From Acidobacteriota bacterium (GTDB lineage: Bacteria > Acidobacteriota > Blastocatellia > Chloracidobacteriales > JADJPF01): a DNA stretch of 64,000 nt. Shown here one piece after another: positions 24,424-36,059 of the stretch. The stretch is from the NCBI GenBank assembly GCA_016213785.1, contig JACQZQ010000008.1, forward strand, positions 1-64,000, read 5' to 3'. A program made the translations under genes and the position numbers. Positions within the stretch are counted from its first letter, which is position 1, and each line of letters opens with the position of its first letter. The notes below the pieces were generated by a model. The model had not been told where the DNA came from. It saw nothing but the letters and a program-made list of their open reading frames with translations, and ran no database searches.

Positions 24424-25626
24424 TTATTGACCGGAAGGGAAAGCTCTTTGTGTAATTTGGATAGCTTGGCCTCCAATAATTATTGAACCTGAGCGAGGGC
24501 TAGAAACTGCGTTAGGAGCAACTGTAAATTCTACTGTTCCACTGCCTGAACCGCTTCCAGAGGTGATTGTAATCCAATCTGAATTTGTGGTTGCTTCCCA
24601 AGCACATTCTAGACTTGCTGTAATATTTATAATTCCTGCACCACCATTTTCACGGTACTCAAAGAATAGAGGAGATGCCAAAGTGCAGCCTACACCAAAT
24701 TGTGTAATGGTATGAGCAATATTTGTTCCTTCAACTATTATTCTAACCGTACGAGGAGCATTTTTAGTATTTTGCGGGACAGTATAAGTAACTCTACCAA
24801 ATCCCATTCCAGTACTTCCAGAAGTGATAACTGCTGCTCCATCTGAGTAGACAACATATCGACAAGTTGGTAGACCCGCAGTTATATCAAAGCTTCCTGT
24901 GCCACCGCTTGGTAAAAATACGGCACTACTAGGTGAAAGTGTATACATAGTGCAATTACCAGCACGACGTTGTATAACTGAGTGAGTGCGGTTATTTGAG
25001 GAAGGTAGATTAACTACCTCAACCTCAATTGAGCCAGAACGGTCAAAAGTGGTTGTATTAGTATCTACTGTATAGACTACAGCACCAGACCCTTCTTCTC
25101 CTGGTGCAGGGGAAATAATATGTATCCAAGGAGTTACAGTTCTTGCTGTCCAAGGACAGGTTGCATTAACTGTAACACTATAAGTTGCTAGGCCAGAATC
25201 TACAGTCTTAGTTGTGGGGTCAAGCGATAAACAACCTTGTGGTGGAGGTGGTGAAGCAGCACCATCTTGAGTTACTGTGTAGGTTAGACCTTCAACCGTA
25301 ATTTTAGCTGAACGAGGTTCGGTGCTAGTGTTACTAGCCACTTGATAAGAGATTTGTTTATTTCCAGTACCACTAGGGTTGATAATTTGAAGCCATTCAG
25401 CATTACTACTAGCTACCCAATTACATCTAAGGCGTGATGTTGTTATATCAAAACTCCCCGGCCCTCCGCTTGCGAGGAAATGAGCTTCTAAAGGGTCTAT
25501 CGAATAAGTACAACCAACAATTTGTGTATTTAGATGGCTTAGATTATTTGCTTGTCCAGATATAATAGAGGCAGACATAATAAAAGCACAAAGAATTAGT
25601 AAAATAGGTAAAACTTTTTTTCTCAT
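24424..25626 (-). CDS. Exported protein with four BACON-type repeats
   Basis: A 400-residue exported protein. The signal peptide (about 1-25) is followed by four copies of a roughly 85-90 residue immunoglobulin-like repeat of the BACON type. Each has a cysteine near its start (CTYSIDP, CLSLDP, CTMYTLSP, CTLASP), a C-x-W or W-I core such as NAEWLQIINPSGTGN or DWITITSGSGSG, and an end of the form PRSAKITVEG...TVTQ. A Pro-rich joint (PPPPQG) separates repeats one and two. BACON domains occur in surface proteins and are thought to bind carbohydrate or mucin. No enzyme domain is attached. It is the last of five leftward genes. Confidence 0.8.
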   Translation of the reverse strand: MRKKVLPILLILCAFIMSASIISGQANNLSHLNTQIVGCTYSIDPLEAHFLASGGPGSFDITTSRLRCNWVASSNAEWLQIINPSGTGNKQISYQVASNTSTEPRSAKITVEGLTYTVTQDGAASPPPPQGCLSLDPTTKTVDSGLATYSVTVNATCPWTARTVTPWIHIISPAPGEEGSGAVVYTVDTNTTTFDRSGSIEVEVVNLPSSNNRTHSVIQRRAGNCTMYTLSPSSAVFLPSGGTGSFDITAGLPTCRYVVYSDGAAVITSGSTGMGFGRVTYTVPQNTKNAPRTVRIIVEGTNIAHTITQFGVGCTLASPLFFEYRENGGAGIINITASLECAWEATTNSDWITITSGSGSGSGTVEFTVAPNAVSSPRSGSIIIGGQAIQITQRAFPSGQ

Positions 25627-25736: not shown

Positions 25737-26255
25737 TTATCTTGGATTTTTTACTGTGTAAGCAATATTAAGATTTTTTACACCTAGAGAAACTACATAG
25801 CCTGTGGATAAACGATGAAAGGCTTCATATGTTAAGCCACAATTGCCATCGCCTAGAGGAGTACTTGAAGTTGCTTTTAATAGCCCTACATTGTAGAGTG
25901 TAAGTGACCCAACAGGGTAATTACCAACAAGGATATTAACGTAAGGGCCAATAGAATCAGAGGCGGTTTCTGAAAAAACTGGGCAGGCTGTCGCTTTTGG
26001 CCCAGCAGGGCGAAAACGAATAGAAACCCCTGAATAAGTCACTGATTCAACAAGACCTGTTAGATTAATAAGCTTAGTTGTATTATCTCTACGAAGTACT
26101 GTTGATGTTGGATAAAGTGTAACTGTTGGTATTCTCTCAGCCCCTTGAGGTGTGGCTGCATTAACATGCTTTATTGAAGAATTTGATACTAAAGCATAGG
26201 CAAAAAGTAAAATAAGTGCTATTAGTACAATTACATGACTTTTAAGTTTTAACAT
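25737..26255 (-). CDS. Small exported protein of unknown function
   Basis: From ATG 26255 (GGAG seven bases upstream) the protein has 172 residues with an N-terminal hydrophobic signal/anchor at about 6-26. The mature part is strand-rich and has two cysteines (in ACPVF and GNCGL) that could form a disulfide. I do not recognise the family. It lies between the BACON-repeat gene (about 110 bases) and a long AT-rich gap, on the same strand as the anti-sigma, sigma and CHAT genes. Confidence 0.55.
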   Translation of the reverse strand: MLKLKSHVIVLIALILLFAYALVSNSSIKHVNAATPQGAERIPTVTLYPTSTVLRRDNTTKLINLTGLVESVTYSGVSIRFRPAGPKATACPVFSETASDSIGPYVNILVGNYPVGSLTLYNVGLLKATSSTPLGDGNCGLTYEAFHRLSTGYVVSLGVKNLNIAYTVKNPR

Positions 26256-26632
26256 TTTTTTCTCCATAAATTTAAGATTTAAAATTTAATAGACACTTGT
26301 AAACTACTTAGGTAAATTGACTAAAATATATAAAAACACTTTTCCTATAACAATAGTGAGTTTAGGTGTTTAGGTATTTAGGTGTTTAGGTGTTTAGGTG
26401 TTTTGAAAATTACTTTTAAGAGAAAGTAATTAGTTAATAGTAATTTCCTATAGTTATGTAAAACATAGAGTTTAATTAAGATTTTACAAATGTTTATTTG
26501 GTTTAAGATAAATATAAGGTCTATCTACTAATTACTAATGATAGTATTTAGAAAGTATATGGGCAAAAATAGTGAAATTATTGGAAGTTTTGGCAGAAGG
26601 ATGAGAAGAGATAAACTTAAGGAAATAAAAGT
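26256..26632. other. AT-rich intergenic gap with no gene seen
   Basis: This stretch separates the small exported-protein gene from the anti-sigma-like gene. Apart from the octamer array at 26361-26400 it is plain AT-rich sequence without a convincing open frame, hairpin or tRNA. It may hold the promoter of the two downstream leftward genes. Confidence 0.5.
26361..26400. repeat. Octanucleotide tandem repeat (TTTAGGTG x5)
   Basis: Five consecutive 8-bp units at 26361-26400 read TTTAGGTG, with the second unit varying to TTTAGGTA. This is a short microsatellite in the leader region of a leftward exported-protein gene. Such arrays can change copy number by slippage and alter promoter spacing. Confidence 0.85.
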
Positions 26633-27640
26633 TTAATTTTTTCTAACAAAAAAACTATATTCTTCAATAGTAGTAATGGATCCATCTTTGGCTACACTAT
26701 TAAGCTCTAATGTATAGCTATTTTCATTAAGAGAATTTGAAGGAATTTCAATAATTAAAAAAACATTAACTTTTTTAGAATTTTTGTCTAAGTTATTTTC
26801 TTGCCAAACAAGAATTTGATCATTTTTTCCACTAGCTTTTAATGCTAATTGTGTTGGTTTAAGTGAAGTTTTTGGTAGCTTTAATTTAAACTGAACATTT
26901 CCACTTAGTTTTTGAAATAGTTTAATTTTTTGTTCTTCACCTCCTTCATCTCTAGTTAATGTAGCTGTATCACCTTCTAAAACAAAGGAAAGTATTGGGC
27001 TATTCAAGTTATTATTTTGAGCAATTTGTTCTTGGGGATTAGACTGTTTTTCTTTATCTAAGCTTTCTTTAAGCTGCAAAATTTGTGTTTCTTGAGAATT
27101 AATTTTCTGTTCTTGAGAATTCATTGTTTCTTTTTGAGTAGTAAGTTCTAATGTTTTTTGGTTGATTTCTGCTAAAAGTTCTTGTTGTTTTTCAAATAGT
27201 TGTTTTAGACGCTCTTGTTCAAAATATCTCCAAGTTAAGACTAAAAAGGTAATAGCAATAGAACTTACAAAAGCAAAACGCCAAACAAGACTAAATGATG
27301 TAAATGCTTCTTTTAATGATTGCCACCAAGAAAGAGTTGGAGTTGATAAAGTATTTTTTGTAACTACTTCTTTGGTTTCTTTAGTTCTAGAAATATGAAT
27401 GGATAGGGCTTTAGCCACTTCTACACGGTGGCGTATACTAGGAGTAGCTTTAAGGTAATTTTCAAATTTTTCTCTTTGATCTATAGGGAGTTGATTTTCT
27501 ATATAAGCATCTATTAAGTCATTTTGTGTAGCTTCAAACTCTAGAAATTTTTCATCATCAGAAAAATATTCTTCCTCCAAAAGAATTTCTTCCTCTTTGG
27601 AGAGATCGCCAAGAAAATATGAAGTTAATCTATCTTTCAT
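26633..27640 (-). CDS. Single-pass anti-sigma-like membrane protein
   Basis: A 335-residue protein from ATG 27640, which has AAAGG eight bases upstream. Residues 1-115 form a cytoplasmic acidic helical domain (DRLTSYFLGDLSKEEEILLE...) like the putative sigma-binding domain of zinc-less anti-sigma factors. One transmembrane helix lies at about 118-139. A coiled coil follows at about 141-200 (EKQQELLAEINQKTLELTTQ...). The last 120 residues are probably a strand-rich exported domain. The gene is directly downstream of an ECF sigma gene (about 220 bases), the expected place for its regulator. The anti-sigma role is inferred from context and topology. Confidence 0.65.
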   Translation of the reverse strand: MKDRLTSYFLGDLSKEEEILLEEEYFSDDEKFLEFEATQNDLIDAYIENQLPIDQREKFENYLKATPSIRHRVEVAKALSIHISRTKETKEVVTKNTLSTPTLSWWQSLKEAFTSFSLVWRFAFVSSIAITFLVLTWRYFEQERLKQLFEKQQELLAEINQKTLELTTQKETMNSQEQKINSQETQILQLKESLDKEKQSNPQEQIAQNNNLNSPILSFVLEGDTATLTRDEGGEEQKIKLFQKLSGNVQFKLKLPKTSLKPTQLALKASGKNDQILVWQENNLDKNSKKVNVFLIIEIPSNSLNENSYTLELNSVAKDGSITTIEEYSFFVRKN

Positions 27641-27864
27641 GGTGTTACCTTTAATCAAAAAAGTTAAAGTTTTTAAGCATAACCTTTCTTAAATTAACAA
27701 ATACTAAAAAATAAAGACATCATTGGAAATTATCTTAATAGGTTTATAAAAATTATAGTCAATAGCAAAATATTATTTCCAATAATGCCTGTACGCTCAA
27801 ATTTAAGTGTAAAAATCAAAAAAGTGTATGATTTATAAAACTTGTTTATTTGCAAAACTTGTAT

Positions 27865-28485
27865 TCATTCCTGGTTCAAGCAATTGTTAATACACCTCTC
27901 TAATTTAGCGCGAATTCGAGTAACTCTATTTCTTAGCGTAGTTATATCTATTCCTAGTTTTTGGCTTAATATCAAGCGTTTATCTATTTTTGTTCTTTGA
28001 GTTTCTTGATGATACTGAATAAACATCTCATAGCTTTCACTAGGGAGTTGTTGTAGACAAGAAGCTAAGCACTTTAACATAGCTTCTTGTCTTAATTCTT
28101 TGTCTTGTTCGTTTTCAGAATTTTTTGGGTCAATGCTAGGGTGTTTATTTGGTAGAAGTTCATCTAGCGACTCAAATTTTTCTTCTTTGCCACGCCAATA
28201 TTCCATTAGAACAAGGCGTGCAACTCCTCTAGCATATGCATAAGGCTCTTGGGTTTCAATTTTAGTATTAGATGCTAATTTTTGTCCTATACGTAAGAAA
28301 ACCATATCAGCACAATCTTCAGCTTCTAAACATCCTTGGATTTGAAAATAGCGAATAATTTTTTTTCTTAGTTCTAGGTAGGTTTTGTCTGCTTTTTCTA
28401 CGTCAGGATTTAGCCAGTTGAGTAGTAGCCTGAAAGAGTCAGGATTTAAGCTAGTTTCTAGAATTCTTGAAAATAAATCTGCCAA
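27865..28485 (-). CDS. ECF-type RNA polymerase sigma factor
   Basis: A 206-residue protein with the two helical DNA-binding regions of ECF sigma factors. A region 2-like part at about 40-105 includes DCADMVFLRIG and AYARGVARLVLMEYW. A region 4-like HTH at about 145-200 includes LQQLPSESYEMFIQYH and IDITTLRNRVTRIRAKL. The region 4 phrasing differs from classical E. coli RpoE but is common in sigma factors of bacterial groups with many ECFs. It lies between a TPR-CHAT gene upstream and a membrane anti-sigma-like gene downstream on the same strand. The start follows a purine-rich AAGGAAATTTTC. Confidence 0.8.
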   Translation of the reverse strand: MADLFSRILETSLNPDSFRLLLNWLNPDVEKADKTYLELRKKIIRYFQIQGCLEAEDCADMVFLRIGQKLASNTKIETQEPYAYARGVARLVLMEYWRGKEEKFESLDELLPNKHPSIDPKNSENEQDKELRQEAMLKCLASCLQQLPSESYEMFIQYHQETQRTKIDKRLILSQKLGIDITTLRNRVTRIRAKLERCINNCLNQE

Positions 28486-28628
28486 GAAAATTTCCTTAAA
28501 AACTAATTAAGCATTTTAGTAAAAACTATCTATGTATCACAGAAACCTTTATTTTTATATGATAACTAGCAGAAATCACATGATTTTAATGTAATCTCTG
28601 CTAATTAAAACTAGCTTTTAATATTTAA

Positions 28629-31600
28629 TTAATTCCATTTACCTTGTAAAACAAAGGGTGCCCAAAGGTAAGGAGATTTAAAACGTTCGTCTTTACTTAA
28701 TTCAATTTGGGCTAGACGAAGTGCTTGAGAAGGGGTTTTATTTTCTTTAAGTACTTTTTTATAAAAGTTTTCCATTAATTTGGCAGTAGCACTATCATTT
28801 ACATTCCATAGACTAGATATAACTCTAGATGCTCCTGCTGTCATAAATCCTTGTGTTAATCCGACAATCCCTTCTGCTTTTAATTCTTTACCTAAGGCTG
28901 ACTGACAAGTACTTAATACAACTAAGTCGGCTTGTAATCTTAGATTATAGATTTCATATAAAGATAGGAAACCATTTTGAAGCTCACCTTTTTTATCAAA
29001 CAGGGAAAAGACTATTTTTGATAGTTCAGGGTTTTGGTTATTAATTTGCGCATGAGTAGCAAAATGTATAAAGCGAAATAAAGTTAAGTTTTCTGCTAAA
29101 AAATTAGCTTTGGTTGTTTCAAAACTTAGAAATTTTTTGAAACGGTTTTCATCTATTAAGCTAGTAATTAAATTAGCTTCTTTTAGTGAAGCTATAAGCC
29201 TAGTAAAATTTTGTTCTCTAACAACTGAGCTAATCTCTTCATTTTTTGGATTAGGAAGTTTTTTAACACTTTCTATATTAAATCTAGGATCATCTAGGGA
29301 AAATACTGGATCAGCAATAACTAATATTTTTTTATCTAAAATTTGTTGTTTAGGGTTTTGTTTTAAGAAAGTAATAATGCTAACAGAAGGTAAGTTAACT
29401 ATTTCATTGGTTTGGAGTAGTGGGACTAATTGATTATTTTTCTTAGAGTTTATTTTAGGAATAGAGTTAAGGGGTAATGCTCCAAAAGGAATATAATGTA
29501 AACTCTCATCAGGCACAATAACTAAACGTTTTTCTTTGAATTGTTCAGGGTTTGGCAATAATACTTGGCTTAATTCTTTAGCTTTTTGCCAATAAACCCT
29601 ATCATCATCATCATTAATTTGTTTGAGAGAAAATCTTTGGGCTGTTTTGACAAGGTTTTCAGAAGTTTTAGGTTTTCCTTTAGTTGAGAGTAATTGATAT
29701 ACTTCTTGGGCAAGATTATTTATTTTTTTACGGCTAGGAAGTACATAACTTACCATATTTGTTTGACTTATAACCCAAAGATAGCTTTCAGTTTCTCCTA
29801 AAAAGTATTCTAGAATTAGGCTTTCTGGGTCAAGAATTTGTTTTTGAATTGCTTCTAGTCCTAAAGGCTTGGCTTCAGGTAGTGCTATAAAACTAGGGTT
29901 TTGTTGTTTAATTTCTACTAAAACCTCTCTTAACTCTCTAAGTGTTTTTTCTTGCTCTTTTTTTACTGTTTTTGCGTCTTCTGAGTCTTCTAGTTTATTG
30001 TTTGCTAGCTTAATCAAAGAAAACTGTTGCTCTTGAAGTTTTCTTCTTAAATTTTGCTCTTTATCGACTAATTCTTTACTTACTCCATATTTAATATCTA
30101 TGTGTGATTGTGCTAAGAGTTCTAAAAGATTTCTTGCACGTGCTTGTTCACTTACTTCAAATGCTTTTACATCATAGCCTGCTGTAGGGTTTTTTAGATG
30201 CTGTTTCATTAATAAAGAAATATAGAGAGCATAACTATTTTGTACAATTTCTGCATAGTTTTGGCGAAATTCAGGGTTAAGTATGTTTTTTCGTGTAAAA
30301 GTAATTAATTCAATTGCTTGCTCTATATTTTTTTGGGCTTCTATAAAATCACCTATCTCAAATTGAACTTCAGCTAATAGCCTTAAGGTATTTGCTAGAG
30401 GAAGATTTCTATTATCAGATCTTAAAAGAGGCAGGGCTTTATTTAAGTAAACTAAAGCTTTAAGGTTATTATATGTAGCAAAATTTTTATGGTAAACTTC
30501 ACCAAGTAGCATTAATGTATAGCCTTCTTCAGATTTGGCTCCAAGTTTTTGAAAAACCTCTAACGCGCTTTGATAATTTTCTAGCGTTTGTTCAATTTTT
30601 TCTTGCTTAGCATATAAAACACCAAGATTTCTTAGTGCACTGGCTTTTGTTGAAAAATCCTCATTATTTAAGTCAATGGCTTGCTTATATAAATTTTCTG
30701 CCTCTGACAACTTATTTAAATAATAGTGTGCTGAGCCTAGGTTATTTAAGACTACAGCCTGTGAATTTAAGTTTCCTGTCTGTTGATGAATTATAAGTGC
30801 TTCTTCATATAGTTTTATTGCTTGGTCAAGATCCTCAAAAAACATATATACATTAGCTAGGTTATTGATTGATTTAGCTATTTGATCCTCTAGGTTTAAT
30901 TTACTTGATATATCATAGGCTTTCTTATAATTATCAAATGCTTCTTGGTAATTAGTTTTATCGCCAGCAACTTGCCCTATGTTATTATAACTAGCAGCTT
31001 CCATAGCACCTTTTGCAATTGGGTCAGACATAGTAGGCGTAATAGCTAGAACTTTATTGTAGTAATTTATAGCTTCTTGGCTTTTTCCTAATAAATAGTA
31101 CATCCGTCCTATTTCATTTAGTGTTTCAGCTTCAAGAGCTTTATTTTCTGAAGCTTGGCAATGTAGTAAAGCTTTTTCAAAGGTTTCTAAAGCTTTTAAT
31201 ATATTTTTTTGATTTTGATATAAATCGCGCCCCATTTCCATGGTCTTCTCAGCCAAAAATCTTTCAGTCACTAACACTTTATCTTTTGAAGAAGCCATCC
31301 TTAATTCTTTTAACTTAATTGTATAATTTCCTTCTTTAGGGCTATTGTTTATAAGTTCGATTTTATAACTGCCTGATACCTTAATTATTGCTTCTAGCAC
31401 TTCTGTACCTTGTTGACCAAAGGGGTTATCTGTCATAACTACCAGCTTATCATTAGCGTCTAGTAGTTTTACCTCAAGGTCAGCACCTTTTTGTTCTACT
31501 AGCACTTTTATATATTGTCCTTCTACTAAGTCAACTTTATAGAAGTGGGTTTTATTAGCATCTATTTGTTGATTTAACTCTTTACTAACTTCTAAATTAT

Positions 31601-31763
31601 CACTTACAACAGGCGTTTGTTGATAAAAGGTGTATTTAATAGTGCTAGCTTTAGGGTATTTGCTAAACTCCGTGATTAGCAAAATGGTTAAGATAATTAT
31701 TAAAAACTTTGCACATGTTTTGTAAGAAAATAGTCTAGAAAAATAATGTAAGGTTTTATACAT
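28629..31763 (-). CDS. Exported TPR-CHAT caspase-like protein
   Basis: A 1044-residue protein with four parts. An N-terminal signal or anchor helix lies at about 18-36. A beta-sandwich of the pre-peptidase C-terminal (PPC) type follows at about 60-155. A long array of tetratricopeptide repeats spans about 185-500 (for example EAINYYNKVLAI). After a helical linker, a CHAT protease-like domain occupies about 730-1044. The clan CD caspase-like dyad is visible: His904 in FATHA and Cys953 in LSTCQSALG. The domain ends PYLWAPFVLQGKW as in other CHAT proteins. The CHAT part is therefore predicted active and outside the cytoplasm. It stands first in a leftward group with an ECF sigma factor and an anti-sigma-like protein. 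Confidence 0.88.
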   Translation of the reverse strand: MYKTLHYFSRLFSYKTCAKFLIIILTILLITEFSKYPKASTIKYTFYQQTPVVSDNLEVSKELNQQIDANKTHFYKVDLVEGQYIKVLVEQKGADLEVKLLDANDKLVVMTDNPFGQQGTEVLEAIIKVSGSYKIELINNSPKEGNYTIKLKELRMASSKDKVLVTERFLAEKTMEMGRDLYQNQKNILKALETFEKALLHCQASENKALEAETLNEIGRMYYLLGKSQEAINYYNKVLAITPTMSDPIAKGAMEAASYNNIGQVAGDKTNYQEAFDNYKKAYDISSKLNLEDQIAKSINNLANVYMFFEDLDQAIKLYEEALIIHQQTGNLNSQAVVLNNLGSAHYYLNKLSEAENLYKQAIDLNNEDFSTKASALRNLGVLYAKQEKIEQTLENYQSALEVFQKLGAKSEEGYTLMLLGEVYHKNFATYNNLKALVYLNKALPLLRSDNRNLPLANTLRLLAEVQFEIGDFIEAQKNIEQAIELITFTRKNILNPEFRQNYAEIVQNSYALYISLLMKQHLKNPTAGYDVKAFEVSEQARARNLLELLAQSHIDIKYGVSKELVDKEQNLRRKLQEQQFSLIKLANNKLEDSEDAKTVKKEQEKTLRELREVLVEIKQQNPSFIALPEAKPLGLEAIQKQILDPESLILEYFLGETESYLWVISQTNMVSYVLPSRKKINNLAQEVYQLLSTKGKPKTSENLVKTAQRFSLKQINDDDDRVYWQKAKELSQVLLPNPEQFKEKRLVIVPDESLHYIPFGALPLNSIPKINSKKNNQLVPLLQTNEIVNLPSVSIITFLKQNPKQQILDKKILVIADPVFSLDDPRFNIESVKKLPNPKNEEISSVVREQNFTRLIASLKEANLITSLIDENRFKKFLSFETTKANFLAENLTLFRFIHFATHAQINNQNPELSKIVFSLFDKKGELQNGFLSLYEIYNLRLQADLVVLSTCQSALGKELKAEGIVGLTQGFMTAGASRVISSLWNVNDSATAKLMENFYKKVLKENKTPSQALRLAQIELSKDERFKSPYLWAPFVLQGKWN

Positions 31764-34276: not shown

Positions 34277-34759
34277 TTAGTTCTTCATCAGCCATTCAGC
34301 AAATATGCGGGCTTCCTCATACTTGCCGCACCAACGAGCACGATTTCGACCTGTTAAGGCCAAAACTTGAGCATGATGCTGACCAGCACGGTCGCCAAGT
34401 CTCCCAAAATAGCGAAAAAGATTATCAATCCTATCTACAGATTCTCGTGCTGATGCTACATCCTTAAAACTAAGTATATTTTTAAAAAAGCGGCTATAAA
34501 TATTTTGGTCTGTTACAGGAGTAGTATAAAGATCTGTATAGCCGCTAATTAAACCTGCTGCTTGAAGCACACTAGCTACATAGCTAGGTTTAGTTTTTGC
34601 CATTTGAGCAACTACTAGCATATCAGTATGACCCTGTTTATAAAGACTAATAATATAATTTTTTTTGGTTTCCTGTTTTTGCTTTTGTTCTTCTTGAGAA
34701 ACTGGCAAATCATCAAATAAAGATGGAGCTAGGTTATTTTGTGATGAGCGTGTTTGCAT
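34277..34759 (-). CDS. Small HTH-like protein downstream of the Rad52-like gene
   Basis: A 160-residue soluble protein that I do not recognise. A polar N-terminus rich in Gln and Lys is followed by a helical segment at about 32-72 (IISLYKQGHTDMLVVAQMAKTKPSYVASVLQAAG) that looks like a resolvase- or MarR-style helix-turn-helix. A second helical region at about 85-160 contains FGRLGDRAGQHHAQVLALTGRNRARWC. It begins 52 bases after the Rad52-like gene on the same strand and is followed by a terminator, so both are likely one transcript under the same operators. A role in the same DNA-repair response is inferred from that arrangement only. Confidence 0.6.
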   Translation of the reverse strand: MQTRSSQNNLAPSLFDDLPVSQEEQKQKQETKKNYIISLYKQGHTDMLVVAQMAKTKPSYVASVLQAAGLISGYTDLYTTPVTDQNIYSRFFKNILSFKDVASARESVDRIDNLFRYFGRLGDRAGQHHAQVLALTGRNRARWCGKYEEARIFAEWLMKN

Positions 34760-34811
34760 ATACCCTCCATAATTTTACTTCTTGCTTTTTATCTCAAACT
34801 AAACCAATAGG

Positions 34812-36059
34812 TTAAGCAGAAATAGATTGTTTAACATTCTTTAAGTGGTCAATAAATGTAGAAGCTGCACGTCTACTAAGTTCTGCAACTTTACAATTAA
34901 ACAATTCTTGGCAAAGTGTTTCTGCATCAACTCCGTTAGCATTAGCAATAGCACGAATTGCTGCATGTTGTTTAGTTGTAGCCATTTCAGCTATGTTTTT
35001 TGCTACTGGATCGCGTGGAAAACGAAGTGGTTGACCATTTGCAGTTAAGTCTTCATCAGTGTGTTTATAGAGATCTCTAGCTATACCAAATTTTACTGCT
35101 GCTCGTTTTAATGCGTCGTGCTCAGCCTTTTTAATTCCAATTTCATCATAAGCTGAACCAGTTCCTACTCCTTCACGAGTTACACCCATAATAGTTATTG
35201 ATGCAGTGATAGCTACTAATTCACCAATTTGACGAACCTCTTTAACTGCATGTGACCAGCGGGGATAAATACGATCCAGCATATCTGCTACAGTATGCCA
35301 CTCAATATAATCAATCTCGTGATCTACTCCAGCTTTATCTGTCCACCCAAATCTTTGACGGATGAGTTCTCTTGAAATTGGGGCTGAGAGTTCTTTTAAG
35401 ATATTAACAAAATTATCTTGGCTAGTTTTATCCATAGTTTTATCCATAGTTTCCTCCATAATTATTAAATCTGGTGTTAATACTGGAGTAATAACTTCTT
35501 CAGTTACTTTATTTGTATTTTGTTTCATTAATTTATCCTCAGATAAAGTTTCTTGTTTCATAGGTGAAATATTTGTTGATTTAGATCTTTGTTTGACAGG
35601 TGAAACAGTACTTATTTCATTAATTTGTTTCATAGATGAAACAACGTTTATTTCGTCATTTTGTTTCATAGATGAAACGATTAAATTCTCATTTTCTTTA
35701 TTTTGTTCAAAACTTTTTTCTATAATATTTTGAGCTAAGGGTTCTTGAGCTATATTTATAGTTTCTGTTACTTCTTCTATTTGTTGTGATTGCGAGTTTT
35801 CAGATAAAGGTTCTAAGAAATATTTTACTGCTAAAATATGTTCGCAACGAAAGCGAGCGTCTTCTTGAAAGTTTTTTTCAAAATCAGTACAAGAACAGCG
35901 TACACGCCCTTTTTCATCACGCCAAACTCGTAAATTATCATTATGATTGCTAGGTGATTTTACATTAAATCCATGTTCATCTCTTACTATTAACCCCATT
36001 TCAGCGATTAATTTAGCTCGTTTGGTACGTACATTTAAATTTTTAATGGCTGTATTCAT
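34812..36059 (-). CDS. SWIM zinc finger-Rad52/DdrA-like protein
   Basis: A 415-residue protein in three parts. Residues 1-85 hold a SWIM-type zinc motif, C55-x-C57...C72-x-H74. Residues 120-180 form a repeated linker of 12-residue units containing SSMKQ or SPMKQ. Residues 215-340 match the Rad52/22 single-strand annealing domain, with GSAYDEIGIKKAEHDALKRAAVKFG. A helical tail follows. In Deinococcus the Rad52-like DdrA protects DNA ends after damage, which is a plausible parallel. AAGGAG lies eight bases before the ATG. It is divergent from an XRE/IrrE-like pair, and its promoter is overlapped by 16-bp palindromes. The fusion with a SWIM finger is noteworthy. Confidence 0.8.
   Translation of the reverse strand: MNTAIKNLNVRTKRAKLIAEMGLIVRDEHGFNVKSPSNHNDNLRVWRDEKGRVRCSCTDFEKNFQEDARFRCEHILAVKYFLEPLSENSQSQQIEEVTETINIAQEPLAQNIIEKSFEQNKENENLIVSSMKQNDEINVVSSMKQINEISTVSPVKQRSKSTNISPMKQETLSEDKLMKQNTNKVTEEVITPVLTPDLIIMEETMDKTMDKTSQDNFVNILKELSAPISRELIRQRFGWTDKAGVDHEIDYIEWHTVADMLDRIYPRWSHAVKEVRQIGELVAITASITIMGVTREGVGTGSAYDEIGIKKAEHDALKRAAVKFGIARDLYKHTDEDLTANGQPLRFPRDPVAKNIAEMATTKQHAAIRAIANANGVDAETLCQELFNCKVAELSRRAASTFIDHLKNVKQSISA
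35522..35678. repeat. In-gene 36-bp tandem array of the operator-like palindrome
   Basis: Inside the rad52-like coding sequence, four 16-bp copies related to GTTTCATAGATGAAAC start at 35555, 35591, 35627 and 35663, exactly 36 bp apart. Two are identical to the intergenic type, one has one changed arm (GTTTCATAGGTGAAAT) and one is more diverged (GTTTGACAGGTGAAAC). A half copy (GTTTCAT) starts at 35522, 33 bp before. The 20-bp segments between them differ. Because 36 is a multiple of three, the array encodes 12-residue linker repeats. The same motif occurs four times in the promoter region 400 bp away. Confidence 0.9.

Follow-up and report, generated by a model that had tools for sequence, protein, structure and literature searches.

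DdvA of Myxococcus xanthus is an experimentally studied transmembrane anti-sigma factor; DdvS is active once DdvA is inactivated, and the 2015 paper gives the trigger as unknown (PMC4374960). The DdvS/DdvA system (PDB 8rot/8rw5) pairs an ECF sigma factor with a transmembrane anti-sigma factor carrying TPRs and a C-terminal CHAT domain. In the type III-E CASP/Craspase system (Cas7-11, Csx29, Csx30 and CASP-sigma), Csx29 cuts a sigma-factor inhibitor (PMC10028731). Herein, we analyzed a 64,000-nt stretch of DNA from an Acidobacteriota bacterium (the window), in which the genes of a TPR-CHAT protein, an ECF-type sigma factor and a membrane anti-sigma factor are neighbours, together with relatives from the 58 nearest genomes and a 396-genome phylum sample. 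The exported TPR-CHAT protein, the ECF sigma factor and the membrane anti-sigma factor very probably form one signalling switch. We regard the locus as probably a split, CRISPR-free relative of DdvS/DdvA, in which the exported TPR-CHAT protein would control the anti-sigma factor, probably by proteolysis.

Comparison with DdvS/DdvA and other sigma-factor systems

The likeness to DdvS/DdvA was drawn from the fold and sequence of DdvA. All elements of a DdvS/DdvA-type module were present in the window on two polypeptides, including a CHAT domain with the conserved His and Cys (H904/C953). The one-polypeptide form was found in 18 relatives of the same sigma group, and the domain order of these fusions is that of DdvA. 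A fusion profile matched the PDB sequence of DdvA ('CHAT domain-containing protein') at 5.5e-21, the best stretch running from the middle of the anti-sigma domain through the transmembrane segment into the first TPRs. In addition, the CHAT profile matched the DdvA C-terminus at 2e-7, with the His and Cys kept (LATHG and LAACE in the alignment). However, DdvA is a single polypeptide, whereas the window CHAT protein is separate and predicted to be exported, and the window anti-sigma factor has its own coil-Ig ectodomain. The fusion architecture is already known from DdvA; no description of the split exported form, or of its interchange with fusions across Acidobacteriota, was found in the literature searched.

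The initial annotation, made from the letters of the window, had likened the locus to type III-E CRISPR loci. The same protein types do recur (a TPR-CHAT protease, a sigma inhibitor and an ECF-like sigma factor) and Csx29 is the top fold match, but the much closer DdvA was overlooked. The window locus has no guide RNA, its sequence similarity to the type III-E proteins is weak, and no Cas7-11 (gRAMP) was found among the open reading frames neighbouring it. Furthermore, CHAT and inhibitor are cytosolic in type III-E, whereas the window CHAT is predicted to be exported and its inhibitor membrane-bound. Given the lack of Cas7-11 at the locus and this predicted topology, type III-E membership was rejected. 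The window system would instead be a non-CRISPR parallel to Craspase-Csx30-CASP-sigma, outside the cytosol. The earlier statement that the protein types occur without CRISPR genes held for the locus but not for the genome, in which type III RAMP genes lie on contigs C40 and C103, neither of which carries a CHAT gene.

We also compared three further systems. The ECF54 loci of Actinobacteria carry CHAT proteins, and control by proteolysis without an anti-sigma factor has been proposed for them (PMC8999054). They share with the window the CHAT gene and other protease genes nearby, but are described without an anti-sigma factor, whereas a membrane anti-sigma factor is the regular partner of window-type sigma factors. 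Since an anti-sigma-type gene adjoins the window sigma gene, ECF54 membership was rejected. Regulated intramembrane proteolysis of the RseA/DegS/RseP and RsiW types also involves a membrane anti-sigma factor, with the first cut presumably made by a periplasmic protease; the window has a CHAT cysteine protease in place of DegS or PrsW, and a few relatives have HtrA-like genes at the locus. In CalpL/CalpT/CalpS of type III CRISPR (PMC11417357), a protease likewise cuts an ECF-bound anti-sigma factor, but that system is cytosolic, with a Lon-SAVED protease and cyclic tetra-adenylate as the signal.

Linkage of CHAT genes with sigma/anti-sigma pairs

The sigma gene was present in 32 of the 58 nearest genomes and the anti-sigma gene in 28, often as several paralogous adjacent pairs. 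A three-row alignment profile found sigma relatives in Acidobacteriota, including Blastocatellia, Chloracidobacterium sp. UBA7656 and Pyrinomonadaceae. The profile of the anti-sigma domain matched 74 of the 396 phylum-sample genomes, families outside the class included, the weakest of the 74 matches spanning only part of the domain. Linkage was scored in 80 sigma-centred neighbourhoods with profiles made from the matches; same-class pairs numbered 76, the window counted. A CHAT gene lay on the same strand within 3 kb in 53 of these 76 pairs (27 upstream, 13 downstream, 1 on both sides and 12 fused). Three of the remaining pairs had a CHAT gene nearby on the opposite strand, and 20 had none, a few of the latter lying at contig ends. 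Of 19 pairs from outside the class, 11 had a same-strand CHAT gene and 2 more an opposite-strand one. As a control, only 4 of 45 other sigma70-family genes of the window's own genome were within 3 kb of a CHAT gene (Fisher p ~1e-11, run with 54 instead of 53 and on pairs that are phylogenetically non-independent). The conservation check suggested with the initial annotation thus found the three-gene set phylum-wide.

We then considered the linkage from the CHAT side. The 32 sigma-bearing genomes held at least 458 CHATs, about 12% of which were linked to the window-type sigma group, so a CHAT accompanies the sigma pair far more often than the sigma pair accompanies a CHAT. The possibility that the CHAT gene is routinely separated from the sigma pair, raised at the outset as a reason to abandon the idea, was not borne out for the sigma pairs, about 70% of which keep a CHAT, although most CHATs stand apart from this sigma group. 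In an unrestricted ranking of homologues of the window CHAT, linked and unlinked genes were intermixed. In the sigma tree, the window protein clustered with those of L087, a locus from the same genus, and L089, from another family (SH-aLRT support 95); the CHAT gene was directly upstream in all three. Over 56 split loci, the distance correlation was 0.45 between sigma and CHAT and 0.56 between sigma and the anti-sigma domain. When partners were swapped among same-genome paralogs, the sigma-CHAT correlation averaged 0.23, and the observed value was never reached in 2000 trials (p<0.001). This covariation above within-genome reshuffling indicates that the CHAT travels with its own sigma/anti-sigma pair.

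Some CHAT-less pairs had other exported proteases as neighbours, namely two caspases (same genus), HtrA, S41, trypsin-like and astacin proteases. At L088:5273-10914 (same genus), a second pair has its sigma gene divergent from the anti-sigma gene and is flanked by two exported C14 caspase-domain genes, with no CHAT. In genus g16 (L115, L117 and L124), the sigma gene of CHAT-less pairs is preceded by genes for a membrane HtrA-type protease and a small peptidoglycan-binding-like protein. The window's own genome holds two more clusters of CHAT, sigma and transmembrane-protein genes with other ECF types; on contig C105 (L016:2739-7727) and at the start of contig C8 (L028:1-1918) there are one intact anti-sigma-like/ECF/CHAT row and one truncated by the contig end.

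Properties of the three proteins and the fused forms

The Pfam search identified the CHAT domain (PF12770, 200 bits) together with many TPRs. The protein has an N-terminal export signal or anchor, a beta domain (~53-156), a TPR solenoid (~159-550) and the CHAT domain (~720-1044), and the predicted structure (pLDDT 81) shows an N-terminal helix, the beta domain, the solenoid and the CHAT fold. Its best PDB fold match by Foldseek was Csx29 (8eey_B, E 2e-14), followed by DdvA (8rot, 8rw5) and then human separase; a second structural aligner matched the Craspase TPR-CHAT chains at Z ~23-26. Given the large root-mean-square deviation in long-chain alignments, these matches speak for a shared order of domains but not for a close superposition.

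Both elements that the initial annotation had read in the CHAT protein were recovered. His904 and Cys953 fall on the conserved dyad columns of the CHAT alignment, and both residues were present in 79 of 79 sigma-linked CHATs. The export signal corresponds to a hydrophobic stretch near the N-terminus (residues ~16-34), which has no textbook cleavage site and may be retained as an anchor. Such a stretch occurred in 49 of 55 long stand-alone linked CHATs, mostly as a typical Sec signal, and among the exceptions several CHATs have doubtful start codons or broken frames. Among the unlinked CHATs of the own genome, three paralogs have Tyr for His, and two of these also lack the Cys. These exported TPR-CHAT paralogs (L017:6671-10132, L022:3759-7010 and L026:3954-7181) are, judging by their degenerate dyads, probable pseudoenzymes. 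At L018:5825-9013, a CHAT gene is interrupted by a single in-frame stop; its neighbours are ParA-like and replication-type genes, and it may belong to a mobile element.

The window sigma was sub-threshold in Pfam, but matched NCBIfam sigma70-ECF (E=1.9e-8) and SigZ and Sig-70_gvs1 (~4e-10 to 7e-10). The sigma group has the conserved C-terminal pattern KI.NR..LA..LGI..NALRIR..RIR..LE.C. By these features the window protein is clearly ECF-like, a divergent ECF-type sigma factor. A PDB sequence search with the window sigma gave no match, and one with the sigma profile gave one weak ECF match.

The anti-sigma factor has 336 aa from the ATG at 27643, and the listed TTG start would add 5 aa. It consists of an N-terminal anti-sigma domain, an amphipathic WW segment, a transmembrane segment, a coiled coil and an Ig-like beta domain. 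The AlphaFold model (pLDDT 87) shows a helical N-terminal domain, a helix (119-201) in which the transmembrane segment runs into the coiled coil, and a beta-sandwich (218-335). The single membrane helix that had been proposed was thus found, but the exported part is a coiled coil plus an Ig-like domain and not a coiled coil alone. Of the 28 N-terminal domains in the family, 27 matched PF13490 (zf-HC2), which is common among anti-sigma factors, with a best E of 5.5e-8 and a weakest of up to 1; the window protein matched sub-threshold (E 0.001). The zinc-binding cysteines of the zf-HC2-type domain are missing from the family. With this N-terminal domain, a single transmembrane segment and an ECF neighbour, the protein has the predicted features of a membrane anti-sigma factor of the zf-HC2/ZAS-like kind. 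A PDB sequence search with the anti-sigma domain gave only a weak match, 3hug_B (E 0.22), which we take to be the anti-sigma RslA. The fold search of the whole protein was dominated by Ig domains and says nothing on the helical domain.

The 18 fusions (~1000-1250 aa, six of them chosen for length) lie immediately 3' of the sigma gene and consist of the anti-sigma domain, one transmembrane segment, TPRs and CHAT; the apparent splits L152 and L214 look like frame-broken fusions. The first 200 residues of the fusions matched nothing in a PDB sequence search. Fusions were gained or lost in at least three changes on well-supported branches in both trees. The upstream, downstream and fused states of CHAT interchange on the sigma tree, indicating that the linkage outlasts rearrangement. 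With the anti-sigma domain in the cytosol and a single transmembrane segment, the fused CHAT lies outside. Fusions and Sec-like N-termini thus both place CHAT on the outer side by prediction; a CHAT domain on the other side of the membrane had been named at the outset as incompatible with the idea. The predicted topology, with a cytosolic anti-sigma domain and an extracytoplasmic CHAT, agrees with that of the initial annotation.

Downstream of 17 of the 18 fusions is a leaderless protein of ~280 aa. Its family (~260-345 aa, no Pfam match, no signal peptide; e.g. L121:4557-5537) also occurs near membrane-anchored CHATs without a sigma gene in the own genome (L020:9056-10009 and L023:7263-8141).

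Proposed mechanism and alternative explanations

We propose that the anti-sigma factor tethers the ECF sigma factor at the membrane through its N-terminal domain in the cytosol. TPR-CHAT, outside the cytoplasmic membrane, would sense a signal through its TPR solenoid, and the activated, caspase-like His/Cys site would make the site-1 cut in the anti-sigma factor, within its exported coiled-coil/Ig region. Follow-up proteolysis would then free the sigma factor, which may induce exported and surface proteins. Relatives have this TPR-CHAT unit and the anti-sigma domain in one protein, and so does Myxococcus DdvA. This proposal is based on the three parts, their linkage, the fusions, the dyad conservation and the covariation, with the topology taken from prediction. 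The domain order shared with DdvA, Csx29 as the top fold match and the other exported proteases beside some CHAT-less pairs also speak for it. We give the role of the exported TPR-CHAT as site-1 protease on the anti-sigma factor a probability of about one in two.

Catalysis is best supported by the dyad, which is unbroken in the linked CHATs. Several findings weigh against a site-1 cut. The coil-Ig region is missing from the fusions, and nothing else counts as heavily against trans cleavage being the universal mode; trans cleavage is therefore not the whole story there, and self-cleavage or another mode is needed. The leaderless protein downstream of the fusions is hard to square with a purely extracytoplasmic CHAT. 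No conserved cut-site motif was seen in the alignment of the exported part of the anti-sigma family, and the positive-inside charge difference around its transmembrane segment has the expected direction but is small. Finally, 20 of the 76 pairs have no CHAT nearby, the other-protease neighbours are few and possibly there by chance, and the majority of CHATs stand away from window-type sigma loci.

The TPR-CHAT protein might instead be a sensory ectodomain, in which ligand binding alters the conformation or oligomeric state of the anti-sigma factor, either directly or within one polypeptide, and the protease site acts on another envelope protein or on itself rather than on the anti-sigma factor. 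The fusions set TPR-CHAT at the position of a sensor ectodomain with the coil-Ig region missing, DdvA has a structure solved as a dimer, some pairs do without CHAT or have a substitute for it, and the leaderless partner gene follows the fusions. Nevertheless, loss of the His or Cys should then be tolerated, yet none of the 79 linked CHATs has lost the dyad, and we consider this explanation rather unlikely. The natural splits part the sensor-protease from the inhibitor, so that cis and trans models are testable with three genes.

ECF operons often contain target genes, and CHAT could be such an output, a sigma-controlled exported protease acting on the envelope, rivals or phage-infected cells and encoded in an operon with its regulators. 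The exported genes downstream in the window and at several relatives fit this, as does the CHAT family itself, which is widespread and much expanded in these genomes. However, in 18 proteins and in DdvA a single chain holds both CHAT and the anti-sigma domain, so that CHAT belongs to the regulator in these cases at least; an output role seems improbable to us. Chance neighbourhood in a genome with 17 CHAT matches and about 46 sigma70-family genes was rejected, as the phylum-wide linkage, fusion and covariation in relatives contradict it.

A broader form of the proteolytic proposal, which we hold only tentatively and find doubtful, is a CRISPR-free phylum-wide system with exported TPR-CHAT as the dedicated first cutter of the anti-sigma ectodomain and with split and fused forms that can replace each other; its CRISPR-captured relative would then be the cytosolic Csx29/Csx30/CASP-sigma relay.

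Gene layout and neighbouring genes

An open reading frame check agreed with the three genes and coordinates first proposed, all on the minus strand. The order on this strand is TPR-CHAT, sigma, anti-sigma, the 176-aa exported protein and the 400-aa exported BACON protein. The gaps among the three core genes (143 and ~220 bases) make their co-transcription plausible. An upstream motif common to the CHAT and sigma genes (TAGTTTTTNAAGGA) was no more frequent within the window than expected by chance. In the own genome (6.4 Mb), the sigma and anti-sigma genes are each single-copy.

Coordinates of the CHAT/sigma/anti-sigma locus and its downstream genes in the window
Feature	Position	Strand	Basis or remark
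TPR-CHAT protein, 1044 aa	28629..31763	minus	PF12770 and TPR matches, predicted structure, fold matches
ECF-type sigma factor, 206 aa	27865..28485	minus	NCBIfam matches and conserved pattern of relatives
Membrane anti-sigma factor, 336 aa	26633..27643	minus	sequence, family profile, AlphaFold model
Cytosolic anti-sigma domain (ASN), ~85 aa	27389..27643	minus	zf-HC2 type without zinc cysteines
Catalytic His904 codon of CHAT	29052..29054	minus	kept in 79/79 sigma-linked CHATs
Catalytic Cys953 codon of CHAT	28905..28907	minus	kept in 79/79 sigma-linked CHATs
Small exported protein, 176 aa, downstream	25737..26267	minus	possible operon/regulon member
Exported protein, 400 aa, four BACON domains, downstream	24424..25626	minus	possible operon/regulon member

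In the RAMP clusters of the own genome (C40:4874-10078 and C103:51138-57396), some frames have double RAMP domains. At 34277-36059 of the window, a protein that by eye resembles a SWIM zinc finger plus a Rad52-like part is encoded together with a small neighbour. This gene pair is found close to the CHAT locus in the same-genus genome as well (L087:166-1907).

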